Shown here piece after piece: positions 1 to 23,446 of a DNA stretch of 24,104 nucleotides. The notes below the pieces were generated by a model. It saw only the letters and a list, made by a program, of their open reading frames with translations, did no database searches and had not been told where the DNA came from. Origin of the DNA: a virus; IMG/VR virus record IMGVR_UViG_3300010158_003822, positions 1 through 24,104 of that record, one strand, 5' to 3'. Numbering within the stretch: position 1 is the first letter of the stretch; every line of letters starts with the position of its first letter. Both the position numbers and the translations under genes were made by a program.

Positions 1-198
1 CAATATGCTTGAACCGGTTATGGTACCGGTGGCACTGATCACACCACCTGTCAATACATTACCACCGGTTATGTTTGCTGTGGCTGATACAACCGATCCC
101 AATATGCTTGAACCGGTTATGGTGCCAGTTGCTGATACTAAGCCACCTGTCAATACGTTACCACCGGTTATGTTTGCTGTGGCCGAAATTGTGGACCC
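1..198 (-). repeat. 99-bp direct repeat within tail fibre gene
   Basis: The segment starting at base 1 (caatatgcttgaaccggtta) recurs at base 100 with only a few changes, giving a 99-bp period, or 33 residues (SSILGSVVSATANITGG followed by NVLTGGxxSATGTITG). Shorter relatives of the unit recur up to about base 620. The array continues beyond the window edge. Confidence 0.8.
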
Positions 199-1053
199 TA
201 CAGTAACACCATTCACAGCATTAAGGTTATTGGCACTGAAATTATTGGCTGTATAAATGGCTGTGGCATTTGAACTCAGCGTTTGATCACCAAGTTTTAA
301 TGTGGTTCCACTGAGATAGAGATCTTTCCAGTATTGTCCAGGACCGCCAAGATTGTATGTTGCATTGGCACTGGGCAAAAGGTTGCCGGTTATGTTGCCA
401 GCAATTGACAAATTACCACCAATGTTTACATTGCCTGCGGCACTGATCAGGCCACCTGTTAATATATTGCCACCTGTGATGTTGGCACTTGCACTAACAA
501 CTGAGCCTAGAATACTTGAACCGGTTACGGTTCCAGCGGCAGATAACAATCCACCAGTTAATACGTTACCACCGGTTACGTTACCTGCGGCACTGATCAG
601 GCCACCTGTGAGCAGGTTGCCAGTTGTGGTATTTCCTGTGACACTGAGTGTGGTCAAAACTCCAATATTGCTGGCTGTGACACCGGTCAATTGTGATCCG
701 TTACCGATAAAGTAATTGCCGGTGATGTTGCCTGTGGCACTTACTACCCCGCCAGCTGTGACGTTGTTGTTGGTCGCAACATTGTTGGCATAAACCACAG
801 ACCACACACTTGTGGCATTGCCCAGAGTAAACGTATTGTTGCTGGTTGGTATGAGATTACCACTTGCATTGGGTATAAATCCGCCATAGGGCAAACTATT
901 CCAAGCAGTGACTCCATCACCGTATTTGATCAGGTCAAGATCAGTGTCCAGACCCGGTTCAGCCAAGGCCAATATAGGATTGGCCGCGTACCAATTTGCT
1001 GTGGTATCTCTGCGTAGTTGTATTGTGGTACCAACGACTGGTGGTGCTGGCAT
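1..1053 (-). CDS. Repeat-rich tail fibre protein, partial (C-terminus outside window)
   Basis: The minus frame is open from the ATG at 1053 to the window edge, giving 351 residues without a stop. The first ~75 residues (MPAPPVVGTTIQLRR..., then LAEPGLDTDLDLIKYGDG and PYGG) resemble the N-terminal module of many marine phage fibre proteins, in which a position-and-grid description of the sample is followed by beta-rich repeats. The rest is dominated by Gly/Asn/Thr/Ser repeats of the type ITGGNxLTGGxxSATG, and it contains the GNYFIGNGSQLTG module also seen in the fibre encoded at 3024-5156. A YNLGGPGQYWKDLYLSG segment near residue 235 is typical of intramolecular spacer modules in fibres. The preceding gene's stop lies one base upstream (TAACATG), so translation is probably coupled. 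It probably forms an elongated trimeric beta-structured fibre on the virion. The receptor-binding tip would lie outside the window. The family assignment is firm; the exact position in the tail is inferred. Confidence 0.8.
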   Translation of the reverse strand, partial: MPAPPVVGTTIQLRRDTTANWYAANPILALAEPGLDTDLDLIKYGDGVTAWNSLPYGGFIPNASGNLIPTSNNTFTLGNATSVWSVVYANNVATNNNVTAGGVVSATGNITGNYFIGNGSQLTGVTASNIGVLTTLSVTGNTTTGNLLTGGLISAAGNVTGGNVLTGGLLSAAGTVTGSSILGSVVSASANITGGNILTGGLISAAGNVNIGGNLSIAGNITGNLLPSANATYNLGGPGQYWKDLYLSGTTLKLGDQTLSSNATAIYTANNFSANNLNAVNGVTVGSTISATANITGGNVLTGGLVSATGTITGSSILGSVVSATANITGGNVLTGGVISATGTITGSSIL

Positions 1054-1720: not shown

Positions 1721-2095
1721 TTAATATCGGTCTAAACGGTCGCGTCGTCTTTTTAATAGATCTAACACAAGGCTTGATTCATCCTCGTTACGAACTTCCG
1801 GAGCGTCTGACCCCACTTCATTAGTATCTTCATGGTTGACAAAATTATCAGGATTGTCAGGATCTTGATTGATAATTTGATTGATTACTTCACTTTCCTT
1901 GCCACCCTGTTGCTTGAGCAATTCAAGTTCTTGTTGCAATGGTGGAACCATGACAGGTGCGTCGGGCAATGTTTCGCCAGCAGGTGCTGCCACTGTGGGT
2001 GCTCCACCGCCAGCAGGTATGTTGATCGTGATAGGTATCGTGATAGTTGTGCCGCCGGGTGCAGTATCTTCTCTAATGAATTCTCTAGCTCTCAT
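1721..2095 (-). CDS. Small hypothetical virion-region protein, MRAREFI start
   Basis: This 124-residue protein has an N-terminus MRAREFIRED, followed by a Thr/Ile/Pro-rich low-complexity segment (residues ~14-50), an acidic Asn/Asp-rich middle, and a strongly basic C-terminus (LLKRRRDRLDRY). The ATG overlaps the stop of the upstream gene by four bases (ATGA), so the two are translationally coupled. From memory, the MRAREF- type N-terminus recurs on unrelated proteins of T4-like marine phages and may be a short targeting or maturation tag; this is not verifiable here. No domain is recognised and the function is unknown. Its position inside the fibre/structural block suggests a virion or assembly role. 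Confidence 0.6.
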   Translation of the reverse strand: MRAREFIREDTAPGGTTITIPITINIPAGGGAPTVAAPAGETLPDAPVMVPPLQQELELLKQQGGKESEVINQIINQDPDNPDNFVNHEDTNEVGSDAPEVRNEDESSLVLDLLKRRRDRLDRY

Positions 2096-2667
2096 AGGAT
2101 TCCTGCGGCTGCTTGCAAGGCTCTTGATTCTGGCGTGGGCTTGTGAACTTTTTTGGTCTCTAATCCAGCCGCGGATCTCATGCTGTTTAAATCAGTTTCA
2201 TTCTCAGCACGATAAGCATCAGGAGTGAGTGGAACCAGTCGTGCAAATTCCTGTTCGGACCAGTCATGCTCTTGGCCCTTGTAGTGCATGCGCCAGTTGG
2301 TGGGTTCAAATTCTGTCAGGGTTGATAAATCATCCAGCAATGTTTGTATGTAACGTGGTGCGGCTCTGCGTCTGCGTAGTTCAAGATACACTAGATAGCG
2401 ACTGGGTTTGATTTCGCCAGGTGAACGATCTGCGTCCATCACAAAGTCATAGCCTTTTTCAAACCAGGCCACTAGATCTTTTGCGGCACTCAAATCTCTC
2501 ACAAAAAAGCTCAGCACAATGATGTCATCATCGTCGCCCATTTTTGCCGCAAATTCGTCCACATGAACAGTGGGCTTCATCATGCCCTCTAGGTCTTTGT
2601 ATTGCAAACCTTCAAACAAAGGTTGCCCGGGATTGAATGGGTTCTGAAGTGGTACGTTTGAGCTCAT
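2092..2667 (-). CDS. Conserved T4-like phage structural-region protein, unknown function
   Basis: This 191-residue protein contains a soluble alpha/beta domain: VHVDEFAAKMGDDDDIIVLSFFV (residues ~34-56), then AAKDLVAWFEKGYDFVMDAD and SPGEIKPSRYLVYLELRRR. These blocks look like a protein conserved across marine T4-like myoviruses, remembered as a hypothetical protein next to tail genes; no function can be assigned. The C-terminus is Ala-rich. No Shine-Dalgarno precedes the ATG. Instead a CTAAATA element lies 7 bases upstream (see the promoter entry). The stop overlaps the ATG of the 124-residue gene downstream. It is probably virion-associated, possibly a baseplate or tail protein; this is inference from location only. 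Confidence 0.65.
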   Translation of the reverse strand: MSSNVPLQNPFNPGQPLFEGLQYKDLEGMMKPTVHVDEFAAKMGDDDDIIVLSFFVRDLSAAKDLVAWFEKGYDFVMDADRSPGEIKPSRYLVYLELRRRRAAPRYIQTLLDDLSTLTEFEPTNWRMHYKGQEHDWSEQEFARLVPLTPDAYRAENETDLNSMRSAAGLETKKVHKPTPESRALQAAAGIL

Positions 2668-2674
2668 AGTAGTA

Positions 2675-2681
2675 TATTTAG
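2675..2681 (-). promoter_or_regulatory. T4-late-like element CTAAATA, 7 bases before ATG
   Basis: CTAAATA on the minus strand is followed by TACTACT and the ATG at 2667. It is one step from the T4 late -10 box TATAAATA. If it is a real -10, transcription would begin at or next to the ATG, and no Shine-Dalgarno is present. Alternatively it is chance in AT-rich sequence. Confidence 0.4.
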
Positions 2682-2697
2682 TGCTAATGTAAAATGA

Positions 2698-3027
2698 TTA
2701 AATCTTAGGATACTGTGCTTTTACTGCCGCACATGCGGCGTAGTATGCTTCTAAACGACTGTTATCTCCGCGACTGGCCCAGTACATGGCATCAGCAAAA
2801 TCAGTAATGGGAGGATATTGATTTTTTCTTTTGCGTTGATATTCTGTCTGATCAAATTCTTGTTGTAGTCTACCAATTTCGTCCGCAATTTCTTGTTCAG
2901 TTGGCTGTGTCTGATCAGTGTCTATCCATTCTAGATCATCAACCGTGGCACCGCGTAACACCCACTGTGCTCCGGGTCTAAGTGATTGCAATGCTGTGGG
3001 AATGTCGATAATGGGGTTTATTATCAT
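2698..3027 (-). CDS. Putative tail fibre assembly-type protein
   Basis: The gene encodes 109 residues. The start at 3027 was chosen because ACGGAGATAG provides a Shine-Dalgarno 8 bases upstream and because the ATG overlaps the stop of the propeller fibre gene by four bases (ATGA). A longer frame upstream would overlap the fibre gene by 80 bases. The sequence contains SLRPGAQWVLRGATVDDLEWIDTD, then an acidic/glutamine-rich helix EQEIADEIGRLQQEFDQTEYQ, a basic KRKNQYPPITDFADAMYWASRGD segment and a C-terminal YYAACAAVKAQYPK helix. The YPPITDFADAMYW pattern resembles small proteins encoded just after tail fibre genes in many phages (fibre-assembly/XkdW-like). Immediate linkage to a fibre gene supports a chaperone or fibre-attachment role. 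That function is inferred, not demonstrated. Confidence 0.6.
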   Translation of the reverse strand: MIINPIIDIPTALQSLRPGAQWVLRGATVDDLEWIDTDQTQPTEQEIADEIGRLQQEFDQTEYQRKRKNQYPPITDFADAMYWASRGDNSRLEAYYAACAAVKAQYPKI

Positions 3028-5156
3028 GGTGCTATCTCCGTAATAGTAATGGTTGAAGTTATTCCGTAGCCAGCATAATTTACAGATATTGTGCCAGCAC
3101 TCCATGACGCTACTAACATGTTATAAGTTATACTGGTTCCTGCGGCCTGACCAGGACTGTCTAGGTATTCTCGAACCACAGTCCAACTGTTGGTACCAGC
3201 GCCATTGGCACTTCCTGCCCAGCTATCACCTGCGGCACCATCGACACCTACTAATCTGGTGGTTGTGGCACTTATGGTTCTGCTCATGCCTATGTTCAGA
3301 CCACCCGAAGCAGAAGCATATCCTTGTGCCACAAACTGAACAAGAAATTTACTATTTGCTATTTTTGATGTAATTGCCAAAGTGCCGCCAGTACAGGCGG
3401 TATAAGTCTGAATGGCTGTTATTGCGGTAGTATTGCCAAAACTTTTAAATCCAATCTGTATCGGAGTACCACTAGCTGAGATTACACCACTGAGCAGTAA
3501 ATTTCCACCAGTAATGTTGCCAGTGCCAAATGTTCCTGTCCCTGCAGAGAAATTATTAATACTAAACATCGAAACTGTGGTGCCGCCATAATTTGCCACA
3601 TACACAAATCTACCAGTTGGGTCAACAGCTACGCCGTGTGGATTAGCTCCTGTGGCAACAGCAGTGGTTATGCTGGTCAATGCACCGGTTGACTGATTGA
3701 TGCTGTACATTGAAACTGTGCCGCCGGTATAATTTGACACATACACAAATCTACCAGTTGGGTCAACAGCTACGTCGTTTGGTGCCACTCCTGTGGCAAC
3801 AGCAGTGGTTATGCTGGTCAATGCACCAGTTGACTGATTGATGCTGTACATTGAAACTGTGGCGCTGTTATAATTTGGCACATACACAAATCTACCAGTT
3901 GGGTCAACAGCTACGCCGTTTGGACCAGATTCCGTGGCAACAGCAGTGGTTATGCTGGTCAATGCACCGGTTGACTGATCGATGCTGTACATTGAAACTG
4001 TGGTGCCGAAATAATTTGCCACATACACAAATCTACCAGTTGGGTCAACAGCTACGCTGATTGGATAAGATCCCGCGGCAACAGCAGTGGTTATGCTGGT
4101 CAATGCACCGGTTGACTGATTGATGCTGTACATTGAAACTGTGCCGCCGGTATAATTTGCCACATACACAAATCTACCAGTTGGGTCAACAGCTACGCTG
4201 ATTGGACCAGTTCCTGTGGCAACAGCAGTGGTTATGCTGGTCAATGCACCAGTTGACTGATTGATGCTGTACATCGAAACTGTGGCGCTGCCATAATTTG
4301 CCACATACACAAATCTACCAGTTGGGTCAACAGCTATGCCTTCTGGACTAGATCCTGACGCAATCGCGGTGGTTATGCTAGTCAATTCACCGGTTGACTG
4401 ATTGATGCTGTACATTGAAACTGTGGCGTCGAACAAATTTGGCACATACACAAATCTACCAGTTGGGTCAACAGCTACGTCGTATGGTCCGGCTCCTGTG
4501 GCAACAGCAGTGGTTATGCTGGTCAATTCACCGGTTCCTTTATATACTATTCCTCGAGGAGCTACCACTTGATACGGTGTTTTAACAAACGACGTACTTA
4601 ACAATGCATTTCCAGTTATGGTTCCAGTTGCACTCACAAGTCCGTTGGTTAAGATATTACCACCGGTTATGTTACCCGTACTACTGACTGGATTAGAGCC
4701 CAAGGCAGCCAAATTAGCCACTACATTGGCGTTGCCATATATGGCAATACCAGTCAATTGTGATCCATTTCCAAGAAAATAATTGCCAGACACATTGCCA
4801 GTTGCACTCACAAGTCCAACTGTTAATATATTACCACCAGTTACGTTTGCAGTGGCCGAAACACGTCCGGCAGTTAGTAAATTTCCAACTGTGGTGTTGC
4901 CTGCAATTACCGCGGTATTGCTGACACTGTCAAATGTAAATCCTGCACTGGCACCTGCGTTGCCACTGTTGTTGTACAACACATAGGTGTTGGCTCCAGG
5001 AGCCGCTAAATTACCTGTAATATTACCAATAATGTTGCCCACAAAAAATGCGGAAGTAACAATATTGCCTGCAGAACTATACACACCCAAGCTGTTTTTT
5101 AACAGGGCGTTGCCGCTTAAACTGTTTAGTCTATCGTTGGTTGTGAATCCAGCCAT
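3024..5156 (-). CDS. Tail fibre with embedded seven-bladed beta-propeller
   Basis: This 710-residue protein falls into three parts. Residues 1-207 are fibre-type sequence (SGNALLKNSLGVYS, GNYFLGNGSQLTG, GNITGGNILTNGLVSATG). Residues ~208-536 hold seven tandem 47-residue repeats, each with VDPTGRFVYV and TVSMYSI(N/D)QSTGxLTSITT. They match the YVTN/lactonase-type (PF10282-like) propeller blade, and seven blades are the right number for a closed ring. Residues ~537-710 return to fibre sequence (GNITGGNLLLSGVISASG), followed by a C-terminal domain with ITSKIANSKFLVQF, TVVREYLDSPGQ and ITITEIAP, a form common at the receptor-binding tips of marine phage fibres. The propeller is therefore a cassette inside a fibre. 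It lacks evidence of catalysis and is more likely a binding head for a host surface glycan or protein. An AAGG Shine-Dalgarno precedes the ATG. Confidence 0.85.
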   Translation of the reverse strand: MAGFTTNDRLNSLSGNALLKNSLGVYSSAGNIVTSAFFVGNIIGNITGNLAAPGANTYVLYNNSGNAGASAGFTFDSVSNTAVIAGNTTVGNLLTAGRVSATANVTGGNILTVGLVSATGNVSGNYFLGNGSQLTGIAIYGNANVVANLAALGSNPVSSTGNITGGNILTNGLVSATGTITGNALLSTSFVKTPYQVVAPRGIVYKGTGELTSITTAVATGAGPYDVAVDPTGRFVYVPNLFDATVSMYSINQSTGELTSITTAIASGSSPEGIAVDPTGRFVYVANYGSATVSMYSINQSTGALTSITTAVATGTGPISVAVDPTGRFVYVANYTGGTVSMYSINQSTGALTSITTAVAAGSYPISVAVDPTGRFVYVANYFGTTVSMYSIDQSTGALTSITTAVATESGPNGVAVDPTGRFVYVPNYNSATVSMYSINQSTGALTSITTAVATGVAPNDVAVDPTGRFVYVSNYTGGTVSMYSINQSTGALTSITTAVATGANPHGVAVDPTGRFVYVANYGGTTVSMFSINNFSAGTGTFGTGNITGGNLLLSGVISASGTPIQIGFKSFGNTTAITAIQTYTACTGGTLAITSKIANSKFLVQFVAQGYASASGGLNIGMSRTISATTTRLVGVDGAAGDSWAGSANGAGTNSWTVVREYLDSPGQAAGTSITYNMLVASWSAGTISVNYAGYGITSTITITEIAP
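3549..4535 (-). repeat. Seven tandem 141-bp repeats (propeller blades)
   Basis: Seven head-to-tail copies of 141 bp each encode one 47-residue blade. For example, taccagttgggtcaacagct starts at 3611 and again at 3752. The framework is almost invariant in DNA. Differences concentrate in two short patches per copy: the codons before and after the Pro of xxPxx, and three codons following AAT TAT. The near identity implies recent tandem amplification or gene conversion. It also means blade number could be mis-assembled from short reads. Confidence 0.95.
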
Positions 5157-5177
5157 GTATACCTTGCTGTGTTGGGA

Positions 5178-5795
5178 TTACACAGCCGGTCCGGGCGAGG
5201 CACCAGGTTGCTGTTCGAGTGATTGCTGGGCCTGTTGTGCTTGTGCATCACTTTGATTTTCTTCTCGGTCTAGATCCTGCTCATAGGCTTGATCCAGTTC
5301 GTCAAGATCAATGTCTTGATCTTCCATCTCGATTGATCCTGTACGTATGTCATTCATCAAGGCCTTGGGCATGGTGATTGCAACCAACCATACTTCTTGA
5401 ACCATGAGCTTGGCTTTTTTGGTACCAGGTCGATAATCACTAGGATCTGTAATTTTAACGGGAATTTTTATTTTTTGTTTTTTGTACTCAACTTCGCAAT
5501 CAAATGCCAGCAATCTGCGTCCGCCTCTGGGATCGGGCATCATTTTCTCGGGCCACATAAAGGTACAAGTCACACGGTACTTGCCAATTTCCGGCCCGTC
5601 AACCAATTCACCAATTTCCCAGTTTTTAAATGCGTAGATATCAACTTCGTCCAGCACACGCTCAAAGTCCAGTAACGTGGTTAGACTTCCTTCGCTCATG
5701 TAGATGTCGCGAATGTTGTCGGCCACTTGCCAATAATCCGTGTGATCTTTGAAAAGATCCCGATCGCGGACGCCGAATTTGTTATGTGTTTGCAT
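5178..5795 (-). CDS. Conserved T4-like phage protein, probable virion component
   Basis: This 205-residue soluble protein begins MQTHNKFGVRDRDLFKDHTDYWQVADNIRDIYMS. It has a mixed alpha/beta core with KYRVTCTFMWPEKMMPDPRGGRRLLAFDCEVEY and MVQEVWLVAITMPKALMNDIRTG, and an acidic, glutamine-rich tail from about residue 160 that ends PGASPGPAV. The overall shape looks like a protein conserved in marine T4-like phages, but I cannot name it. A long, Glu/Gln-rich C-terminal tail could be a disordered interaction segment. There is no Shine-Dalgarno; GTAAATA lies 7 bases before the ATG. It is the first gene of the minus-strand fibre block and divergent from phoH. Function is unknown; structural or assembly role is inferred from location. 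Confidence 0.6.
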   Translation of the reverse strand: MQTHNKFGVRDRDLFKDHTDYWQVADNIRDIYMSEGSLTTLLDFERVLDEVDIYAFKNWEIGELVDGPEIGKYRVTCTFMWPEKMMPDPRGGRRLLAFDCEVEYKKQKIKIPVKITDPSDYRPGTKKAKLMVQEVWLVAITMPKALMNDIRTGSIEMEDQDIDLDELDQAYEQDLDREENQSDAQAQQAQQSLEQQPGASPGPAV

Positions 5796-5802
5796 AGTTT
5801 AT

Positions 5803-5809
5803 TATTTAC
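5803..5809 (-). promoter_or_regulatory. T4-late-like element GTAAATA, 7 bases before ATG
   Basis: GTAAATA on the minus strand is followed by ATAAACT and the ATG at 5795, the same 7-base spacing as at 2675-2681. It could be a late -10 giving a leaderless mRNA for the fibre block. No Shine-Dalgarno is visible. Confidence 0.4.
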
Positions 5810-5913
5810 CAGAGTTGCCACACTACACAAACTCTTGATAAAACATCGCCTGGTCAATATTTAGCAACCCAGATACCAAGAAATAACACCAGGTTATCTG
5901 TTTTGCACACTCC

Positions 5914-5957
5914 GTAAATAGGCATGTCCGAGAGGACTTTTACCAGGAGAATAGCAC
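5914..5957 (+). promoter_or_regulatory. phoH leader: GTAAATAG element, small hairpin and Shine-Dalgarno
   Basis: GTAAATAG at 5914-5921 resembles the T4 late -10. A four-base-pair hairpin follows (GTCC 5926-5929, GAGA tetraloop 5930-5933, GGAC 5934-5937), then TTTT. Next come ACCAGGAG (5942-5949) and a TTG at 5958. The spacing from AGGAG supports the TTG start. The hairpin could be a weak attenuator or a protein-binding leader element; it is too short to call a terminator. Confidence 0.4.
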
Positions 5958-6695
5958 TTGAGTAGACAAAGGTCAGCGAAAGCACAAAAACGTATGAATC
6001 AGGCAGTAGAAAACACCATCAGCTTTAATCCAGCACCCAGGGCCAAACCCCGGCGCATAGACTTGATCCCTCGCACACGAAATCAAGAACGCTTGGTAAT
6101 GGCTCTACAAGATCCTGACAGTCACATAGTAGTCACAGTGGGACCCGCAGGGACGGGCAAAACTTACTTGGCTATGTTGGCGGCTATCAAAGCCTTGAGA
6201 GAAGGCACATGCGATCGTGTGGTAATGACTCGCCCAGCAGTGGGAGTTGAGGGAGAACAACATGGTTTCCTCCCGGGCAATTTGGTTGCCAAAATGGAAC
6301 CTTGGACTCGTCCGCTATTAGACGTCATGCGCGAATATTATCGTGCCCAGGACATTGTAGCCCTTATAGAAGATCAGGTAATTGACATTTCGCCACTCTC
6401 GATGATGCGAGGTCGAACCTTTAAAAATTCATGGATTATTGCCGACGAAATGCAAAATGCAACCCCGGCACAGGCCAAGATGTTGATGACTCGAATAGGG
6501 ACGAATAGTAAGATTGTAATGACCGGAGACGTAGAACAAACCGACATTAAACATGGCAGTAATGCTCTTGTCGATTTGTGCGAAAGGTTACAGAAGGGAG
6601 GTGGTGTTGAAGGTCTTGTAGTTTGTCCGTTTGAAAATCGTGACATACAAAGACATCCAATTATTAGTAAAATATTGGAAATTTACAAAGATTGA
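5958..6695 (+). CDS. phoH: PhoH-like ATPase
   Basis: This 245-residue P-loop ATPase has Walker A GPAGTGKT at residues 62-69 and a Walker B-type stretch SWIIADEMQNAT, followed by MLMTRIG, a switch-like VMTGDVEQTD and the C-terminal HPIISKILEIY. These are the hallmarks of the short PhoH family carried by many marine phages. It lacks the KH or PIN domains of longer PhoH proteins. The family has ATPase and in some members RNA helicase/RNase-associated activity; in phages the role is unsettled, with phosphate stress or RNA metabolism proposed. The TTG start is chosen because AGGAG lies about 9 bases upstream. An ATG at 5994 (MNQAVEN) has no Shine-Dalgarno. It is one of only three plus-strand genes here, and its 3' end overlaps the convergent homing endonuclease by 13 bases. 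Confidence 0.9.
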   Translation: MSRQRSAKAQKRMNQAVENTISFNPAPRAKPRRIDLIPRTRNQERLVMALQDPDSHIVVTVGPAGTGKTYLAMLAAIKALREGTCDRVVMTRPAVGVEGEQHGFLPGNLVAKMEPWTRPLLDVMREYYRAQDIVALIEDQVIDISPLSMMRGRTFKNSWIIADEMQNATPAQAKMLMTRIGTNSKIVMTGDVEQTDIKHGSNALVDLCERLQKGGGVEGLVVCPFENRDIQRHPIISKILEIYKD

Positions 6696-7288
6696 TAACA
6701 TACACTATTAATTAACTCGTCTCGAGATATTGAACATTCTCTGCCGTTAGATCTGTTACTGGCGGCAGAGATTAGTTCAAGATTTTCTCGTGATGCAATA
6801 ATTGCTGGATGTATATTTTGATGAAATCCTTCATATACCGAAAACTTATGATCCCACTCGTGTCCGGGTGTTGCTTTTAACTTATAGTGTCTAATTACAA
6901 CATAAGTTAAACTTCTCACTAGTTTTTGATATGCTATAAATTCAGGATTAATCTGAACTTTGTCACGATCCTCTACATTGTTTATTTTGAGAAATCGATT
7001 TAGTGCCTTTGGGCCAATGTTATATTTGGTACATAACTGTCGTTTAGTAAGATGTGTAGTTTTCCAATCGTTGAGCATCTGATCTTTTTGTTCAACTGGC
7101 AAATCCTTCAAGGTTCTGAATGCCTTATTAAAAGTTAACTGATGCTGATCGATGTATCTAAGAAGTACCACATCACTGATCTTTAGTAATTTATAAACCT
7201 TGTACAACGAGTTAGTATTAAGTAAATTTTGAACTTGATCAGGAGTAGTAGTGCTTTCTAATCTTCTAAATGCCGGAGATGTAGTCAT
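6683..7288 (-). CDS. Putative HNH/His-Me finger homing endonuclease
   Basis: In this 201-residue protein, residues ~80-101 (LTKRQLCTKYNIGPKALNRFL) look like a helix-turn-helix DNA-binding segment. The C-terminal part has HEWDHKFSVYEGFHQNIHPAIIASRENLELI then NRSNGRECSIS. The DH at 146-147, the Asn in ENL and the NRSNG stretch fit a beta-beta-alpha-metal (HNH-like) nuclease centre of the type found in phage-borne homing endonucleases. DNA is more AT-rich than its neighbours, fitting recent acquisition. A TATAAATA box and an AAAGGAA Shine-Dalgarno precede the ATG. Its last 13 bases overlap the end of phoH on the other strand, so its arrival or decay may have involved that gene's 3' end. The nuclease family is likely; substrate site is unknown. 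Confidence 0.65.
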   Translation of the reverse strand: MTTSPAFRRLESTTTPDQVQNLLNTNSLYKVYKLLKISDVVLLRYIDQHQLTFNKAFRTLKDLPVEQKDQMLNDWKTTHLTKRQLCTKYNIGPKALNRFLKINNVEDRDKVQINPEFIAYQKLVRSLTYVVIRHYKLKATPGHEWDHKFSVYEGFHQNIHPAIIASRENLELISAASNRSNGRECSISRDELINSVCYQSL

Positions 7289-7303
7289 ATTATTTCCTTT
7301 TTG

Positions 7304-7311
7304 TATTTATA
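7304..7311 (-). promoter_or_regulatory. T4 late promoter, TATAAATA
   Basis: TATAAATA on the minus strand matches the T4 late -10 consensus exactly. It lies 15 bases before the ATG of the homing endonuclease at 7288, with AAAGGAA in between. Late transcription through gp55/gp33-like factors is implied. Those factors are not in this window. Confidence 0.65.
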
Positions 7312-7362
7312 CAAAGGTGCTACCTTTTATACATTAGGAGATATATTTTTATTCTACGCAGT

Positions 7363-7947
7363 TTAGGAGGTGATAATTTCGTAGATTTCCCGCCAATTTT
7401 TGACACGTGGTATAATGGGATTATTGTAATCCAGATTGTGTCCGTGTTCCATTAGGAGAGGGTGCAGGCCCAAACTTGCACCCACTTCGCAATTTATAAA
7501 TTTATCCTCAATCCACCATAATCCAGATCCTTGATATGGTGCAAGAGCATCGTCTTTGTCAGCCCCAGTGTCTAAGAACACAAATTTTTCAAAAGCAGTT
7601 TTCCCAAACAATTTACGCAGATTCATTTTACGAAGTTCGCATGCATTTTCATCTTTACTTAGACTTGTAATAGCGTGAAATACATATCCATGTTCTTCGT
7701 GTAATCTTTTTATATAATACATAGCATCGCGTAAAGGGGGTAAAAATCCCATGTGAGCTGATTCATTAAAAATTCTAATTAGTTTTTTACCTTGTTCTTT
7801 ATCTATTCCATAACGAGTTCCGATGTCATATTTGAATTGGCTGCCTTCTTGTTTAACAAACCCGTGTTGTTGCATGTATACTCCAAATGCATATTCCCAA
7901 TCAAGGGCTACGCCGTCAATGTCTGTTAAAATAATTCTGTTTTTCAT
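7363..7947 (-). CDS. HAD-superfamily 5'(3')-deoxyribonucleotidase-like phosphatase
   Basis: This 194-residue protein begins with the HAD motif I IILTDIDGVALDW (nucleophile Asp9, general acid Asp11). The mid region has AMYYIKRLHEEHGYVFHAITSLS (motif II-like, ITS). Motif III/IV is in FVFLDTGADKDDALAPY and GLWWIEDKFINCEVG. Length and motif order fit the NT5C-type deoxyribonucleotidase subfamily found in several T4-like phages, which removes phosphate from deoxynucleoside monophosphates and can balance nucleotide pools during host DNA degradation. A Shine-Dalgarno AAAGGAT is upstream with a rather long spacing. It sits with the radical SAM and HNH genes in a minus-strand accessory group. Substrate is inferred from family. 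Confidence 0.75.
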   Translation of the reverse strand: MKNRIILTDIDGVALDWEYAFGVYMQQHGFVKQEGSQFKYDIGTRYGIDKEQGKKLIRIFNESAHMGFLPPLRDAMYYIKRLHEEHGYVFHAITSLSKDENACELRKMNLRKLFGKTAFEKFVFLDTGADKDDALAPYQGSGLWWIEDKFINCEVGASLGLHPLLMEHGHNLDYNNPIIPRVKNWREIYEIITS

Positions 7948-7986: not shown

Positions 7987-8994
7987 TCATGATATTTTTG
8001 AGCAGTTGAATTGACAGCCCGGTTGTTGTGATAAATTGTTGTAGAATTCGACAGTAGCAGGTTGATCAAGTATTTGACTTAGTGTTGTGTCTGCGATTTT
8101 ATATGATGATTTGTTTTTGCCAAACGGTGTTTTATAATAGAATCTATAGTCGTGTAAAAAACAACAAGGGACATAATGGCCAATTGCAGAAATAAAATGA
8201 TGGTTCCCGTCAGCACATTGTGGCTGTAATTCAAAGGTTGTTCCATTATTTTTCCATTTTTGTTGATTCACATAGATGGAATTTAAAAATTCTTCCTTGG
8301 GCTTGAAATGCTCAGTTTCATCATCAAACCTAGCACTTTTTTCAACTTGAAATGTGTCAATTCCTATTTGTTGACTTAATAACCGAGCCGATTCGGTATC
8401 ATTTTCATTATAATTAAAAACAATATATTTCCAAACAGTTGTTGCTGGAGATTTTGCACAGGTCAACATTGCTTGATGTATTGATTCCCAATCAGCATTG
8501 ATTCTGTATCGTGTAAAATTTTCTGGTATGCCATCCACACTGAATACCACTGTGTCTGTGGAATCAAATACAGTTAATAATTGTTCCCACCATTCAACGG
8601 ATCGATAACTGCCATTGGTAACAAGTCTAATTGAACTGCCTCTTTGTTTTAGTTTGCTTATTAATTCAAATAATTCTGGATGATAAATTGGATCACCATA
8701 ATTGCCACAAAGTAAAATTTGTTTGCCTGTAAGATCACAATCTAAAAATCGCATGAGATCTGCAATATTAACGCTGTGATTTTTCCAATGTTGTGGCCAT
8801 TGTTGTATAAATCTAGTTCGAGAACATCCGGGACATTTAAGAGTACAAATATTTGTGGGTTCAATATGAAACCCAGTGATATTATTCTGCGACGGGTTCG
8901 GTCTCAGGTTTGACAATTTCGTATCCGTTTTCTTTAAACAACCTTTCGATAGTTGCCTCGTAGTGTTGCATGTAGTATTCCACAATGCGGTCAA
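7987..8994 (-). CDS. Radical SAM enzyme with C-terminal auxiliary cysteines
   Basis: The 335-residue frame contains CTLKCPGC (CX3CX2C, Cys50-54-57), the [4Fe-4S] ligands of radical SAM enzymes. It is followed by LLCGNYGDPIYHPEL (the G-rich SAM-binding strand) and VVFSVDGIPENFTRYR. A C-terminal group of cysteines (QPQC, VPCCF, PGCQFNC) looks like a SPASM/twitch auxiliary cluster, typical of enzymes that modify peptides or proteins. The first ~40 residues overlap the preceding gene by 113 bases, and the conserved core starts only at GFHIEPTN. The true start is therefore probably internal, e.g. a TTG near residue 27, and remains unresolved. The gene is AT-rich, suggesting acquisition. It occupies the place where clamp-loader subunit gp62 is expected. 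Substrate is unknown. Confidence 0.8.
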   Translation of the reverse strand: MTALWNTTCNTTRQLSKGCLKKTDTKLSNLRPNPSQNNITGFHIEPTNICTLKCPGCSRTRFIQQWPQHWKNHSVNIADLMRFLDCDLTGKQILLCGNYGDPIYHPELFELISKLKQRGSSIRLVTNGSYRSVEWWEQLLTVFDSTDTVVFSVDGIPENFTRYRINADWESIHQAMLTCAKSPATTVWKYIVFNYNENDTESARLLSQQIGIDTFQVEKSARFDDETEHFKPKEEFLNSIYVNQQKWKNNGTTFELQPQCADGNHHFISAIGHYVPCCFLHDYRFYYKTPFGKNKSSYKIADTTLSQILDQPATVEFYNNLSQQPGCQFNCSKIS

Positions 8995-12210: not shown

Positions 12211-12446
12211 TTGATGTTTATCTTGTTGTCAAAGTTGATTTGTTCGCCGTCGATCTTTTTGTAAGATTCCTGCAGGCGCGATTGATATTTGTTTTGAAAC
12301 GTTTCAATGGCCATCCGCAATTGGTTACACAAGTGAGCATTGCCCATTCTTGTGGCTATGTTGAGTTTGTTTGAAAGTTCCGAAATCTTACTACCGAGTT
12401 CATCAATAGTGAGATCGTCAATATTACCAATTAAAGGATGTTCCAT
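12207..12446 (-). CDS. Conserved small helical phage protein, first gene of replication operon
   Basis: This 79-residue protein, MEHPLIGNIDDLTIDELGSKISELSNKLNIATRMGNAHLCNQLRMAIETFQNKYQ..., is predicted to be mostly helical with a coiled-coil-like heptad region (residues ~14-60). The same core (MEHPLIG...LTxxEL...NAHLCNQxRMAIE) is remembered from marine T4-like phages. No catalytic motif. The ATG lies 6 bases after a -10 sequence, so a sigma70-type transcript might start at the A of the ATG and be leaderless. It is the first gene of the ATGA-coupled operon that ends with gp44 and its neighbour. Confidence 0.7.
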   Translation of the reverse strand: MEHPLIGNIDDLTIDELGSKISELSNKLNIATRMGNAHLCNQLRMAIETFQNKYQSRLQESYKKIDGEQINFDNKINIK

Positions 12447-12452
12447 GTTGCT

Positions 12453-12481
12453 AGTTTACACTATTACAACTGGATTGTCAA
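12453..12481 (-). promoter_or_regulatory. Sigma70-type promoter upstream of the replication operon
   Basis: A consensus -35 TTGACA (12476-12481) is followed by a 17-base spacer and TAAACT (12453-12458), a 4/6 match to TATAAT, on the minus strand. The -10 ends 6 bases before the ATG at 12446, so the start site would fall on or next to the ATG. The -35 lies in the gap after the stop of the 303-residue virion gene. Confidence 0.6.
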
Positions 12482-12489
12482 GTGTTTTA

Positions 12490-13401
12490 TTAACCGAAGG
12501 TACAACCGTTGTTGCCAATGCAGAACCATTTGGAGTTGGTGTATTGCAAAGTGCATCCGGCACCAATTGTGGCAAATGTAAGAGTACCTGTACCGCTGGA
12601 TTTCCAACCAGCATTGGTCACTGTGATAACCATGTTGCCTGAGGCAATGGCCACAGCACTGAACACTTTGATTTGTCCTTCTGCACCTGCGGCCAGGGTG
12701 CCTGTTTCGGCCGCGGCAGTTGTGAAATAACTGGTTGTGAGAGTTAAACTTGCAGCGCCACTGGCTGCCAAATCTTCACTGCCGGTCAAGAACAGTGGAT
12801 TGGTAAATCTGTTTCTGGGCCTAGTGAGTTCGCTGAGGTAAATCGTAGTTCCGCCATCTTCAGTATGGAACTGGAATTCGTATGTGCCGGTTTCCTTAAA
12901 GGTAATCACATTACTGACGATACCCTGAATACCCAGCACTGATGCCGCACTGGCACTGGTCCCTACTGCGGCAGGTAGCGTTAATGTATATGCGGTACTG
13001 GTCACAGTAACTCGCACAATTACCCAGGCTTGTGTGCCCGAAGCGGGGAAATTGCTAAATGCTAGAGTAACACTGCCAGCAGTACTAAGAGTTTGATAAT
13101 GTCCTGAAGCATAGTTGATGGTATTAGAACCTGACACTGAGCCCAGTGCAACTCGGGTAGCACCAAAATCCTGTATGGTGGCATTGTATAACAAACTACC
13201 GCCCATATCGTTGTCTAATGTGGTTCCTGTCAGTGCAGATTTTAATACAACATTGTTCTGCAAATCAGTAATTTCGTTGGCTGCGGCCGTAAAGTTTGTT
13301 TTGATGTTGGTAAAGTTATCACGAAAACCTTGTGAGTTGTTGTCTTGTCCAGCGACCGGATACGATCCGTCGATGTCATTGGGGTTAATTTGACTTGCCA
13401 T
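12490..13401 (-). CDS. Virion tail fibre-like protein
   Basis: The N-terminus of this 303-residue protein (MASQINPNDIDGSYPVAGQDNN, then QGFRDNFTNIKTNFTAAANEITDLQ) is the widespread phage fibre N-terminal form in which a PVAGxDNxSQGFRDNFxxIKxNx stretch precedes beta-rich sequence. The rest is Ala/Ser/Thr/Gly-rich with two short Cys-containing segments at the C-terminus (GAGCTLQYTNSKWFCIGNNGCTF), a pattern seen in small fibre tips that end with a folded knob. It lies just downstream of the 1368-residue adhesin. It is probably a virion fibre or baseplate-attached structural protein. Exact tail position is unknown. Confidence 0.75.
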   Translation of the reverse strand: MASQINPNDIDGSYPVAGQDNNSQGFRDNFTNIKTNFTAAANEITDLQNNVVLKSALTGTTLDNDMGGSLLYNATIQDFGATRVALGSVSGSNTINYASGHYQTLSTAGSVTLAFSNFPASGTQAWVIVRVTVTSTAYTLTLPAAVGTSASAASVLGIQGIVSNVITFKETGTYEFQFHTEDGGTTIYLSELTRPRNRFTNPLFLTGSEDLAASGAASLTLTTSYFTTAAAETGTLAAGAEGQIKVFSAVAIASGNMVITVTNAGWKSSGTGTLTFATIGAGCTLQYTNSKWFCIGNNGCTFG

Positions 13402-13415
13402 TCTTTTTGTCCTAG

Positions 13416-16400
13416 TTATACCAATATATTGGCTTTGGGAAATACCAGATATTTATCATCACGATCTGTAGGATCGTAAGTATCAACTGGTGATATAAAT
13501 TTCATGCTACTTTCGTCGAATATAGTTTCACTGACACTAGATTCTACCACTGGTAACCAATTTATCAAAGTATAACCGGGCGCTGGAGCAGATGGATAAT
13601 AAAATTGCTCTCCAGCAAACCGCAATCCACGCTGAATTTGTACAAATTGTGACTGTGCGGTCATCTGAGTCGGGGTCAGTGTAACCAATCTAGTGGTAAA
13701 ATCAACTGATATAGTGTAAACTGCCATGCGTTGATTTCCAAAATCTGCAGTCATTATGCCCACAGCTGAAGTTAATGTTACAACATCACCGGGTATGCCA
13801 TCCGCTGACGTTTCACTTACTGTAAAATAACGTGTGTTTGCTGTCATTGTTCCTGAACTGGTGCTGAGAGTTTCAAAGCCGCCGCCCAAGGTCAATGACA
13901 CTTTGAACTGTGTTGAATTTATCACTGTCACATAGTAAGGTTGTGATTCTAATGACGCATTTAAAACATCAATCCCGCCAAACGTGTTGCCCGAAAACCA
14001 AACAATATCATCATTGGCTAAATTTGCGGTGCTGTTGCAGGTAATAATATTAGTGCCCGCTGTGGTTGCTGTGCAGGTCACTCCCACAATGGATTTCACA
14101 TAATACACTTGTGTCAGCTGGTTAACACCATATTCTTGTATGCCACCAAATACATCGCCCGAAAACCAAACAGGATCATTAACTGCCATACCCGTAGTTT
14201 CGATGGCTTTGATATAATCAGATCCAGAGATTGATTGGGTACAATCATAAAGATATCCACCAGGTATAGTATAACTTTCATCAAACCAGGCTCCCGAAGT
14301 TTCGGTACTGTATCCAGTATCGTCATACAAATCAATATAATTTTGCCAGGCTTCATCGGGTGTGGCGTAAACAGTATTGGTATAGTACTGTTGTCTAACA
14401 AATATTAAAGTATTGCCATTTATACCCGACAGCTGCCCATCAAGCCCGCCTAATTCAGCAATGTATTCTAAGGTACGATTATTAACATCTGCATAGGCCA
14501 ATCTGGTAGCAATATCAACATAGCCAGCAAATGGCTTCGCACCTGACGCATATCTGTCAAATGTGGTCAACGTTGGTGTAGGAGCCCAATTTTGAGTTAC
14601 TGTATCCCAGTTACGACTCAAGGTATGATCTAATATATATCGATCTACTTTAAAGTCAACTGCATTTAATTGATTTTGAAATTGTGTTTGTATGTAATAT
14701 GCAATTTGTGCGCCATGTCCTGGATTAGCATAGCATATGACCCAGGCTGGAGTAAAGCCCAATATTCGACCATCTGATTGCTTTGATGTCATCCACAATG
14801 GCAACTTTGATGATATCTGCCCCACAACATCAATCACCTGATCTCGCATGTTGACCAAACTGTTGGGGTACACTTGTGTGATTTCTGTACTGCCATCCGC
14901 AGGATCTACAAAAGCATAAGGTGTGTTTACAATTTTGTTCACACTGGCTCCTGAATTGTTCACCAGATTGTCAATGATTTTGCTATACACAACTTCGTAC
15001 ACAACTTCCCCTGTGATAGGATCCACTGCCTGCGCTACATCAATTTCCCCCAACACAAGATTTTTCCAATAGTGATTTAGATATAAACTTTCGATATACA
15101 CATCCAACAGGTCCGGAGCAAGACCAAAAGCATGTTGATATGTCACGCGGCGTGCTTTGCCAAAATATGGATCATTGGGTCTGTAAAGATATTCAGGATT
15201 AAAAATTTCTTCATTGTTTAACAAATTTTCAATAACCAAACGATCGTTAGCCGGCGGCATGGCCTGGATAGATAAATTTTGATAGGGCTTGTTGTAAGTA
15301 TGCTTTACTTGCACTGTGAATGTTTTGTACACACTTACCACGTCTCGAATTCCAGTGGGTCGCATGACCGGGGTTAGTACTGCTCCGCTGCCGCCATACC
15401 CAGCCAATATTGTTAATGTGGCTGGACCAGTATATCCTGAACCAGTATCAGACAATGTGATATCAGTTATTGTGCCAGATTCCACGGTTACTTGACTCAC
15501 TTGTGCTGCCACTGCACTGGCACCAACAGGAGTGCTGAATGCAAGAGCAGGAGTGTCGATACTGCTGTAGCCAATTCCACCATTGTTTATTTCTACTTTT
15601 GATACATTATAAACAATTTGTTGAGTATCTTCTGCGTAGGCGTTCACCGTGAATGTAAACTTGGTGTCAAACGTGGTTTCTTGAATTGTAGCATTTCTTA
15701 CTACCGTTTGCGTGGCATCAAATGTTGTGGTTCCAAGATCTATAGCAAATGTGTTAAAGGTTACCCGTCCGGATAATTCACCAGTTGGCAATAGTTTTAG
15801 CCCTTGTGGTAACAAATTATACGCACCACTTTTTAGTCGATATTGCAAAGTCCTACCACCAACATTTATGGCCTGAATTGACAATAAACTGGTGGCGCCG
15901 TTTTCAATAACGCCCAAATCATACGGTGTGGTCCAAGTAACTTCGGCATTAATAGCTCCGGATATTTCCAATACAAACGGATACGGATCACTGGCCACAA
16001 CCAAGTTGGCAGTAACTGATCCAGCGGCCGTAGATAGTGCTACTGAAGAAGTAGCGTCAGGCTTAATGGCTACAGTGAACTCGGTTATACTCTCTAGTGA
16101 GAAAACATAATATACCTGTGTGGGGCTGGCTGTGATACCACCAAAACTAGTACCAGTGAATACAATAGGTTGTCCTATATTGATTTGTGCTGTGCTGTTG
16201 CAGGTAATAATATTAGTGCCAAATTCTGTAGCGGTACAAGAGATAGGATCCCCCACAAAGTCACTTTGATATACTATGATGTTAAAACTGTAGTCAACCA
16301 CCGTGACACCTTGGTCAGGAATATATCCATAGTACCATCCAGAAACAGGATCAAGTGTTAATCCTGGTGGCAACCCGTAACCTTGATTTACTCCAATGGC

Positions 16401-17522
16401 ATATTTGAGATCGGGCGTATCGTAATCGTTGCCAAGAAACTGATAAGCATAGTAATTGTCCCCACGAACTGTGCCAAGATCACTAGGTAAACCATTAATT
16501 AAAAACGGTGCTCTTTCTGTGGTCTCGTCTGCTGTGACTGTGGTGTTGTCAGCTGTGATCTGTGTGGTGTCAGCAGTAAGAGTACTGCGGTTATAAACAA
16601 AAAATTGAAAAGTTCTTAAATTACTTCCTTTGCCGTCAGTAACTTCAAGGGTAAATTGATAGTTTTTGTTGTTGCCCGGAGCAACAACAAAATCATATGG
16701 GTATGCATAAATGGGTGTGAGGTCGTAACCTGGTGGTTGGTCGATATTATCAACAGGTTTAATATATCCATACAGCAATCCGGTGGGGCTCAATGAGACG
16801 CCACCGGGTAATTCTCCCCCTGCTAATTTTACAATCACAGTATCCCCGGGATCATTGTTGGTATATGTAATTTGATAATCTATTAGATCACCATCATAGT
16901 ATGAACCAATACTACCAGCAGGGGTTATAAATTCTGGAGTTTGATTTCCTGTTACTGTGAGTGTGAACGTGCGATCTCGAATGCGATCAATAGTTTCGTC
17001 TTGGTTTTCTGTGTAAGCTCTAAGTGTAAATTTGCTGGTAACATCGCGATTGACATTATATGGTACTCCTTGTAAACTGGCCAAAGCCTCTGGTATTCCC
17101 ACAATCAACCCATTAGCTGAACATTGTATTCCGGCAGGCAATGAACCTGCAATTATTAAATAATAAACTGATGGCCTGAATACAGCGGTCATAGATCCAG
17201 TTTCAGTCGTTAACTCCACAGGAGAAGTTCCTCCATAAGCAGCATTAATTCTAAATTGTGTACTGCTAATTACGTCTAACACATAGTATTCTACATAAGG
17301 ACTGATGCCACCAAACACAGTTCCAGTAAACATCACAAAAAGTTCAGGGTATATTCCTTCGGTGCTGGTGCAAGTAATAACATTTGTTCCTGCAGTAGTA
17401 GCAGTACACGTGGGTGTGTTTGGCAACGGATCAGTAGTTACCAACATGGTATTCTGATAAAAAATCCCCTCAGGTATAGTACCTAAACTACCAGCTGGGG
17501 TGATCCACACAGGTTGACTCAT
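13416..17522 (-). CDS. Large multi-domain virion adhesin with Ig-like repeats
   Basis: This 1368-residue protein has a start MSQPVWITPAGSLGTI that recurs internally as TPAGSIGSYYDGD, TTPYDLGVIENG and similar. These are He_PIG/cadherin-like Ig domains with the LPxGLxLxPTGxLxGxx motif (for example GELPGGVSLSPTGLLYGYI and PQGLKLLPTGELSGRV). A second repeated domain type starts CTATxxGTNxITCxST and continues (V/I)xFTGxxFGGI...YYV near residues 39, ~427 and ~1147, with a shortened relative near 1110. The middle contains SSKLPLWMTSKQ, FTPAWVICYANPGHGAQIAYYI, a segment characteristic of large marine T4-like virion proteins. The C-terminus (MKFISPVDTYDPTDRDDKYLVFPKANILV) is unlike a fibre tip. It is likely a baseplate- or tail-associated surface protein involved in adhesion; the role is inferred. 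Confidence 0.8.
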   Translation of the reverse strand: MSQPVWITPAGSLGTIPEGIFYQNTMLVTTDPLPNTPTCTATTAGTNVITCTSTEGIYPELFVMFTGTVFGGISPYVEYYVLDVISSTQFRINAAYGGTSPVELTTETGSMTAVFRPSVYYLIIAGSLPAGIQCSANGLIVGIPEALASLQGVPYNVNRDVTSKFTLRAYTENQDETIDRIRDRTFTLTVTGNQTPEFITPAGSIGSYYDGDLIDYQITYTNNDPGDTVIVKLAGGELPGGVSLSPTGLLYGYIKPVDNIDQPPGYDLTPIYAYPYDFVVAPGNNKNYQFTLEVTDGKGSNLRTFQFFVYNRSTLTADTTQITADNTTVTADETTERAPFLINGLPSDLGTVRGDNYYAYQFLGNDYDTPDLKYAIGVNQGYGLPPGLTLDPVSGWYYGYIPDQGVTVVDYSFNIIVYQSDFVGDPISCTATEFGTNIITCNSTAQINIGQPIVFTGTSFGGITASPTQVYYVFSLESITEFTVAIKPDATSSVALSTAAGSVTANLVVASDPYPFVLEISGAINAEVTWTTPYDLGVIENGATSLLSIQAINVGGRTLQYRLKSGAYNLLPQGLKLLPTGELSGRVTFNTFAIDLGTTTFDATQTVVRNATIQETTFDTKFTFTVNAYAEDTQQIVYNVSKVEINNGGIGYSSIDTPALAFSTPVGASAVAAQVSQVTVESGTITDITLSDTGSGYTGPATLTILAGYGGSGAVLTPVMRPTGIRDVVSVYKTFTVQVKHTYNKPYQNLSIQAMPPANDRLVIENLLNNEEIFNPEYLYRPNDPYFGKARRVTYQHAFGLAPDLLDVYIESLYLNHYWKNLVLGEIDVAQAVDPITGEVVYEVVYSKIIDNLVNNSGASVNKIVNTPYAFVDPADGSTEITQVYPNSLVNMRDQVIDVVGQISSKLPLWMTSKQSDGRILGFTPAWVICYANPGHGAQIAYYIQTQFQNQLNAVDFKVDRYILDHTLSRNWDTVTQNWAPTPTLTTFDRYASGAKPFAGYVDIATRLAYADVNNRTLEYIAELGGLDGQLSGINGNTLIFVRQQYYTNTVYATPDEAWQNYIDLYDDTGYSTETSGAWFDESYTIPGGYLYDCTQSISGSDYIKAIETTGMAVNDPVWFSGDVFGGIQEYGVNQLTQVYYVKSIVGVTCTATTAGTNIITCNSTANLANDDIVWFSGNTFGGIDVLNASLESQPYYVTVINSTQFKVSLTLGGGFETLSTSSGTMTANTRYFTVSETSADGIPGDVVTLTSAVGIMTADFGNQRMAVYTISVDFTTRLVTLTPTQMTAQSQFVQIQRGLRFAGEQFYYPSAPAPGYTLINWLPVVESSVSETIFDESSMKFISPVDTYDPTDRDDKYLVFPKANILV

Positions 17523-17886: not shown

Positions 17887-18276
17887 ATGTCATATATTAT
17901 TAACAATAGTCGTGGGCAATTACTAGTGGTTGTACCAGATGGTACAGTAAACACCACTGCCACAGATCTTTATTTGGTAGGGCGAGCCATAACAGATTAC
18001 GGTACCTACGAAAACGAAAACTACGTATATTTGTTGGAGAATTTTGCCAATTCAACTGCACCATTGCAACCAATTTTGGGGCAACTTTGGTACAACAGCG
18101 ACACAGATGTCCTGTCAGCGTACAGTACTGCAAATACCTGGGTGTCTTTGGCCAGTACTGCAAGTCCTGCATTTACCGGGACTCCCACAGCACCTACTGC
18201 GGCACCGGGTACCAATACTACACAAATTGCTACTACAGCATTTGTGACAGCGGCCATTGCAGCCGCGTTGGCTTAG
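17887..18276 (+). CDS. Small tail fibre protein on plus strand
   Basis: This 129-residue protein begins [22 protein letters not shown], a marine T4-like fibre start. It then has [27 protein letters not shown] and the common fibre collagen-like end [19 protein letters not shown] followed by [17 protein letters not shown] good Shine-Dalgarno (CGGAG) precedes the ATG. It is isolated on the plus strand and its stop interlocks with the stop of the ErpA gene by four bases (CTTAG). Likely function: a short virion fibre or adaptor. The reversed orientation hints at local inversion or movement of a fibre cassette. Confidence 0.8.
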
Positions 18277-18593
18277 ACTGAAAAACTTGACCCGCAACCG
18301 CAAGTGGTTTGCGCTTGAGGATTAGTGATCACAAATTGACTGCCCTGCAAGTCTTCTTTGTAGTTGATTGATGCACCTTCTAGGTATTGCATGCTGATCG
18401 AGTCAACTACTAATTTTACATCTTCATAAGCAAAGTCAAAATCGTCCTCGTTCTTGACTTCTTCAAATGTGAATCCATAACTCATGCCCGAGCATCCGCC
18501 ACCTTGCACAAACACTCTCAGCATGAGATTGGGGTTGCCTTCTTCAGCAACAAGTTCACGTAATTTTGCCACAGCACCGGTTTCTAGTATCAT
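18273..18593 (-). CDS. erpA: A-type Fe-S carrier, ErpA-like
   Basis: This 106-residue A-type iron-sulfur carrier has the three conserved cysteines: GGGCSG (Cys34) and CGCGSSFS (Cys98 and Cys100). [22 protein letters not shown] and [15 protein letters not shown] closely resemble bacterial ErpA. ErpA carries [4Fe-4S] clusters to target apoproteins; phage copies could keep viral or host Fe-S enzymes supplied during infection. It is the last gene of the early operon that also encodes superoxide dismutase and IF-1. The ATG overlaps the SGNH hydrolase stop by four bases. Within the window, plausible clients are the ferredoxin and the radical SAM enzyme, but that is inference. Confidence 0.9.
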
Positions 18594-19324
18594 ATTTTTC
18601 CTTGTGTATTAATTGTATTTACAAATTCTTTTGCTAGATTATAATTAGCACTTGACCCACAATGCATTAAATCTCTAGCATTGCCAATATCCCAAAAATT
18701 GTCGAATAAGTTATAATAAAATGGTACATTATGTTTGTTGCAAATATTTTGCATTGCTGATAAATTTTTACGCCTATTTAATTCGCTGTTTTGATCATGC
18801 AACAAGTATTGTTGTTGATATTTTTTCAACCAATGTGGCACATCACACTGTGGTAAAATACTTAACCAATTGCTGGAGGTGGCAGCAAAAATCTCATACC
18901 TAGAAATGCTAGGAACAGCACATGCTACAAATTGAATATTAAGATGTTCAATCCAATATTCAAGAAATCGGTAACAGGTATCTAGTGCCGCGCCGCCACT
19001 TCCAAGATTCCAAATTTTTTGTCCCAACATTTTTTCTAATTGTTTAGGCCATGTATCATCAGCGTGAATTCCTATACCCTGCGTAAGACTACATCCTAGT
19101 GCCAAACCAGCAGGTTGTTGATCAAATTCATCATCTCTAAATCCTTCGCTATTGAATTTATAAATTATGTCAGTGCCAATCCACCCTAGATTTTTGAGTC
19201 TTTCATAGGTTGTTTTGTCCGCACAGTTTGTTTTAAAATTTTGCTCAGTGTCTCCATGTCCACTCCATTTTTGAGTAGTTGATGCATAAATTTGATTGAT
19301 ATGATACGGGCCAGTATAAGGCAT
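18590..19324 (-). CDS. SGNH/GDSL-like hydrolase
   Basis: In this 244-residue protein, block I is [12 protein letters not shown] with candidate nucleophile Ser79. Block II is [13 protein letters not shown] (Gly108). Block V is DLMHCG with the Asp218-x-x-His221 pair. This order fits an SGNH hydrolase, and phage members may act as esterases, deacetylases or lipases on cell-surface sugars. No signal peptide or membrane segment is seen, so it may act inside the cell or be released on lysis. The DNA is AT-rich. It sits between the SOD and ErpA genes with single-base and four-base overlaps (TAATG and ATGA). Substrate is unknown; an unrelated SGNH-fold protein remains possible. Confidence 0.7.
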
Positions 19325-19881: not shown

Positions 19882-19888
19882 ATTGTAT

Positions 19889-23417: not shown

Positions 23418-23446
23418 AGTATATTATGATTCTTTGCCGGTGTCAA
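23418..23446 (-). promoter_or_regulatory. Sigma70 promoter of SleB-type lysis gene
   Basis: A consensus TTGACA (23441-23446), a 17-base spacer and TATACT (23418-23423) lie on the minus strand. The -35 and spacer fall inside the last codons of the ferredoxin gene. A 77-base leader leads to the ATG at 23341. A second TATAAT follows shortly after the -10. Confidence 0.75.

Follow-up and report, generated by a model that had tools for sequence, protein, structure and literature searches.

Phages change their host range mostly through their fibres, by exchange of tips, by point mutation or by retroelement hypermutation. Propellers in phage receptor-binding proteins, repetitive lactonase-like propellers and predicted lactonase-type propellers in uncultured phages are already known. 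According to PMC4901313, the receptor-binding protein Gp45 of Staphylococcus phage phi11 carries a propeller in mid-protein, with a stem before it and a C-terminal tower after it; the ring is closed by an N-terminal strand, and the three propellers of the trimer are proposed to bind the receptor. The same paper reports another propeller-bearing receptor-binding protein, P2 of PRD1, as well as gp131C of Pseudomonas phage PhiKZ (PDB 4GBF), a seven-bladed propeller at the baseplate periphery of a jumbo myophage, suspected of receptor binding or of being an enzyme (PMC4901313). In the WD40 propellers of Podospora HET-E/hnwd, positive selection and shuffling act on positions of the top face, in the d-a loop and the b-c turn, and blades are exchanged (PMC1805685, PMC2873952). 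Among highly repetitive beta-propellers, which are young and were amplified from single blades, are two lactonase-like families (PMC9218822).

The stretch of DNA analysed here (hereafter the window; 24,104 bases) is the entire IMG/VR record IMGVR_UViG_3300010158_003822, probably a phage fragment, and contains a fibre gene (3024..5156) whose 710-aa product bears a seven-bladed propeller in mid-shaft. This fibre shares with phi11 Gp45 the order stem, propeller, C-terminal tip, but Gp45 has five blades and a helical-bundle stem instead of a GNITGGN shaft, and its account, as excerpted, describes neither repetitive blades nor swapping between fibre types (PMC4901313). PhiKZ gp131C, compared by description, also has seven blades, yet these are C-terminal and not in mid-shaft (PMC4901313). 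HET-E/hnwd resemble the window ring in their near-identical blades and in DA/BC diversification (PMC1805685, PMC2873952), but are fungal allorecognition NLRs of the WD40 lineage with a variable repeat number, against seven per ring here. The repetitive propellers of PMC9218822 include PF10282 members, as in the window, and viral examples are counted among them; a phage fibre cassette, conserved linkers and one-face divergence are absent from that text. Bacterial and archaeal YVTN/lactonase proteins (1l0q; GTDB loci L102-L180) belong to the same blade family, with propeller identities of at most 57%, but their matches begin past the entry motif described below and lack the fibre linkers. Two proteins of uncultured Caudovirales in BFVD, A0A6J5SZJ1 and A0A6J5R6I7, are predicted propellers (TMq 0.82 and 0.79); one is named "Lactonase, 7-bladed beta propeller", and neither, as far as the entries show, is described as a fibre cassette or given a functional context. 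Literature searches pairing YVTN or lactonase with tail fibres gave no result, and within our incomplete coverage of the literature no earlier description was found of such a fibre cassette, of its exchange between fibre types or of one-face diversification.

The Fibre Gene and Its Neighbourhood

The gene lies on the minus strand, which the preliminary description had left unstated while giving the correct coordinates; all parts of the gene named here are on that strand. Residues 1-158 (4683..5156) comprise the N-terminal part and the first shaft modules, and modules akin to them recur repeatedly in large fibres, for example that of locus L038. A shaft repeat, GNITGGNILTNG (residues 161-172; 4641..4676), precedes an entry linker (residues 181-208; 4533..4616) with the motif FVKTPYQVVAPRGIVYKG, which is kept in viral carriers and missing from bacterial ones. 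The propeller follows (residues 209-537; 3546..4532), its blades starting at residues 209 (blade 1, 4392-4532), 256 (blade 2, 4251-4391), 303 (blade 3, 4110-4250), 350 (blade 4, 3969-4109), 397 (blade 5, 3828-3968), 444 (blade 6, 3687-3827) and 491 (blade 7, 3546-3686). Behind it stand a second shaft repeat, GNITGGNLLLSG (residues 546-557; 3486..3521), and a C-terminal tip domain (residues 560-710; 3027..3479). The same fibre repeat is thus present on both sides of the propeller and a tip of about 150 aa is retained, both as first proposed.

Upstream lies a homologue of the virion structural gene gp189 of Pseudomonas jumbo phage PA5oct (5178..5795, minus strand, 41% identity) and downstream a homologue of the structural gene gp188 (2092..2667, minus strand, 31% identity). 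In PA5oct, PhoH, gp189 and gp188 are neighbours, with gp188 adjoining gp189, and the window also encodes a PhoH with 51% identity to that of PA5oct; here the fibre and a small gene sit between the two structural homologues. This small gene (2698..3027, minus strand), a member of phrog_9114 with unknown function, shares an ATGA overlap with the stop codon of the fibre gene, which makes co-translation of the two probable, and it is perhaps a fibre assembly factor. GC content shows nothing unusual. Elsewhere the window encodes, on the minus strand, an Fe/Mn superoxide dismutase (19324-19947), an Fe-S cluster biosynthesis protein (18273-18593), a 4Fe-4S ferredoxin (23424-23759) and a radical SAM protein (7987-8994, PF04055), and a similar-looking ORF, judged by eye, adjoins the propeller fibre of contig L005 (4216-5211); a plus-strand ORF (22168-22770) resembles a GIY-YIG endonuclease by eye, and a Pfam search gave no match for it.

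Structural-gene neighbours, the shaft, and relatives ending in Peptidase_S74 or Gp53-like_C identify the product as a fibre, presumably homotrimeric and exposed on the virion. A secreted or surface protein of the infected cell is a highly improbable alternative: bacterial YVTN relatives are widespread and one group of viral propeller proteins (contigs L019, L022, L028 and L033), which ends in Peptidase_S74, has a signal-peptide-like N-terminus by eye, but the window protein has none, its gene is flanked by virion structural genes, and its GNITGGN shaft is common to large phage fibres. Proteins with related shafts make up a large GNITGGN-repeat family in viral contigs. Those at loci L038-L101, including L055:2613-10151, are very large fibres of > 2500 aa, and the L055 shaft contains PKD-like stretches by eye; other domains may travel through GNITGGN fibres in the same way as the propeller (cf. 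L055). An open-ended fibre-like ORF of the window (1-1053, minus strand) combines an Mtd_N domain (PF18454) with GNITGGN shaft repeats. The window tip is weakly related to the tips of two further fibres, L063 and L072 (23% identity over about 140 aa); a structure model of the tip from three sequences reached a pLDDT of 52, and a ten-sequence alignment was of no use, as it aligned shaft repeats instead.

A Complete Seven-Bladed Ring

The seven tandem 47-residue lactonase/YVTN blades of the preliminary description were recovered at a spacing of exactly 47 residues. Tandem Repeats Finder reports on the window a 141-bp unit in 6.9 copies (88% match, score 1452), and the blades are highly repetitive, being pairwise identical at 34-42 of 47 amino acids and 116-132 of 141 nucleotides. 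The match to Pfam Lactonase (PF10282; 278.6 bits, E 1e-82, curated cut-off 21.7) places the propeller in this family. An AlphaFold2 model of the cassette monomer, built from a 19-sequence cassette alignment, has a pLDDT of ~97 in the propeller (about 94-98) and a pTM of 0.87, with linkers below 50. In VIA-align it matches the designed seven-bladed propeller 7big (Z 40.8, rmsd 1.4, 279 residues), the repetitive propeller 2ymu (Z 39.8) and the archaeal YVTN protein 1l0q (Z 38.8). Since the model can be aligned over its whole length with solved, closed seven-bladed rings, a solenoid, the alternative raised at the outset, is ruled out, and the propeller is complete and closed, as had been supposed. 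In the model one d strand comes first and strands a-b-c of blade 7 come last, an order from which the ring would be expected to close in the usual 1+3 manner; both of its ends would then exit near each other, as a cassette requires.

Seven is also the genuine blade count. By blade HMM, 45 viral propeller groups, counted without redundancy and not lying at contig ends, have exactly seven blades. Exceptions among viral loci are few, and most are fragments, effects of register or divergent proteins; other viral relatives have 14, 21 or 28 blades, that is, separate rings in series. Repeat number is therefore not variable: almost every viral group keeps to seven per ring. Two IMG/VR contigs (L005 and L006) encode one and the same seven-bladed fibre of 1034 aa, four others (the L019 group) share one of 644 aa, likewise seven-bladed, and the longest exact internal repeat of the window array is 83 nt, below the usual short-read length. 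Identical arrays in several datasets, together with the constant seven, rule out the assembly artefact that had been considered. The 72-kb phage fragment L233 (IMGVR_UViG_3300027736_000041) has two fibre-type genes, one (2473-7842) with four seven-bladed rings in series and the other (12429-16682) with three, for a total of 49 blades. Two less regular cases were seen: a 1772-aa ORF of IMGVR_UViG_3300027749_000100 (L234:10274-15589), whose roughly 32 blades form two runs and which adjoins further propeller ORFs, and L037:1126-2295, kin of the L019 group, with the usual flanks around two blades only, perhaps an assembly collapse or an incomplete ring needing several chains.

Exchange of the Propeller between Fibre Genes

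Between the window and L005/L006, the sole long stretch of high-identity DNA is 3504-4682 (minus strand; 89% over 1182 columns), which corresponds to residues 159-551. The 1034-aa fibre of L005/L006 differs from the window propeller fibre in both N-terminus and tip, and a homologue of its N-terminus is instead encoded in the window by a separate gene without a propeller (12490..13401, minus strand, 303 aa; 57% identity over 203 aa, and 72% for the first 213 columns of DNA). Because the 89% block lies inside a fibre with another N-terminus and another tip, the same ring is present in different fibre genes of two phages. The propeller is thus a self-contained cassette exchanged between fibre genes of different phages. 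Carriers also vary at their C-termini, which include Peptidase_S74, Gp53-like_C and others.

Both ends of the block fall within the GNITGGN shaft repeat, and a crossover through this repeat seems likely; both proteins are rich in it, so that the block edges fit recombination there without proving it. The original proposal of a domain inserted at the repeat holds for the cassette behaviour and for the position of the block edges, but the cassette is more than an insertion at a repeat, having conserved linkers of its own, with the entry motif FVKTPYQVVAPRGIVYKG and the exit motif SINNFSAG. An HMM of the entry motif, trained on viral members, detected it ahead of the ring in 29 of 41 propeller proteins from viruses and in 0 of 87 from bacteria. 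An exit-motif HMM was dropped as a cassette marker: it overlaps the last blade, hence also matches bacterial proteins and is uninformative.

The preliminary description had advised looking for the same fibre without the propeller. No exact orthologue of this kind was found, and the tip as query gave no relative in IMG/VR (searched by pattern) or INPHARED; the nearest substitutes are the gene at 12490-13401 and L063/L072, in which a shaft of the same style carries another small domain before the related tip. INPHARED gave no DNA match, and its protein matches, at < 30% identity, are in records without annotation.

Diversification of One Face

Codon differences among the window blades are mostly nonsynonymous. 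The variable loops are DA (codons 12-18) and BC (31-36), which by strand order share one face, AB and CD lying on the opposite one. For the window blades, pN/pS comes to 2.70 for the variable loops against 0.15 for the framework, synonymous divergence being much the same in the two (0.125 and 0.110). The loop ratio is lower elsewhere (1.46 in L005, 1.09 in an older set), and values above 1 rest on few, related blades. The excess of loop changes beyond the synonymous rate was assessed by Fisher tests on disjoint blade pairs, with median p values of about 1e-4 in the window, 0.04 in L005 and below 1e-4 when pooled. This excess is clear in the youngest rings only. By these sequence comparisons the divergence, concentrated in the DA and BC loops and above the synonymous rate, is HET-E-like, clearly so in the window and when pooled with L005, and less so in L005 alone.

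The top-face loops (DA, BC) vary more than the bottom-face loops in 36 of 36 viral propellers, and the same excess is seen in 58 of 58 bacterial YVTN propellers; top-face variability is therefore a property of the family and no proof of receptor binding. This equality with bacterial relatives agrees with a ring that is a structural spacer or decoration, stiffening or widening the fibre, with loops that vary through absence of constraint; young propellers do keep arising by blade amplification across many lineages (PMC9218822), and serial rings resemble beads on a shaft. Lack of constraint alone is nevertheless insufficient for window loops that outpace the synonymous rate, the bottom face is conserved, and transfer between different fibres fits a functional module. 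We thus consider a spacer unlikely and favour a host-binding head.

Blade 7 is orthologous between the window and L005 (135 of 141 nucleotides identical), and interior blades 2-6 show no positional correspondence between the two (permutation p 0.43). Off-diagonal blade identity between the two phages (121.8 of 141) equals that within each of them (122.6 and 122.0), a pattern that, at the level of sequence, would fit blade turnover or re-amplification; a PHI-like test gave no significant sign of recombination inside blades (p 0.13). The blade comparison also bears on whether the ring is a lactonase or polysaccharide-degrading enzyme that cuts host-surface polymers. Enzymatic tailspikes are known in other phages, and the propeller has both its Lactonase match and a structural likeness to 6-phosphogluconolactonases (6nau, Z 37.8). 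Non-enzymatic scaffolds are, however, among the nearest structural matches of the model, and near-identical blades without interior correspondence between phages would hardly accommodate an active site that is fixed and asymmetric. An enzymatic ring is thus, in our judgement, very unlikely.

Variable codons are often of the type NNC, with a constant third base, as might be expected if the loops were hypermutated by a diversity-generating retroelement with a reverse transcriptase elsewhere in the genome. Phage receptor-binding proteins mutated in this way are on record (PMC10743442) and the window is a fragment, so the enzyme could lie outside it. Yet RVT_1 was found in 0 of 18 carrier records (themselves fragments), all seven blades vary rather than one 3' region, and the synonymous rate is not raised in the loops relative to the framework, so that the constant third bases are merely at background. 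We regard a retroelement as scarcely credible here.

Proposed Role and Implications

Overall, we propose a modular fibre in which a complete seven-bladed beta-propeller in the shaft acts as a self-contained cassette, moving between the fibre genes of phages with its own linkers, probably via the low-complexity shaft repeats. The closed ring would expose a wide face of DA and BC loops, two per blade and 14 in total, most likely binding a glycan or protein of the host surface, and would so provide a lateral binding head additional to the tip. Loop mutation under selection and turnover of interior blades would diversify this face and leave the framework DNA, the number of blades and the bottom face unchanged. 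Receptor binding and a role of the propeller in host range are inferred from these features, and we hold it probable, with some reserve, that the exchanged cassette is a lateral host-binding head with one diversifying face and blade turnover. A broader proposal, which we put forward only tentatively, is that of a travelling cassette in aquatic phages, its blades interchangeable by recombination both inside a fibre gene and from one to another and under selection on one face, as a host-range repertoire that works without a retroelement and is a phage counterpart of HET-E; if so, some phages would deploy seven rings (49 blades) on two fibres.

Our findings suggest an exchangeable, rapidly diversifying host-binding head in aquatic phage fibres. 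A nearly constant framework with short loops makes this directly testable. If true, a prefabricated ring that fits into more than one kind of fibre and pairs a constant face with a fast-changing one of 14 loops would be a further route to host-range change, and would represent a case in bacterial viruses of the diversification by blade turnover known from fungal allorecognition.
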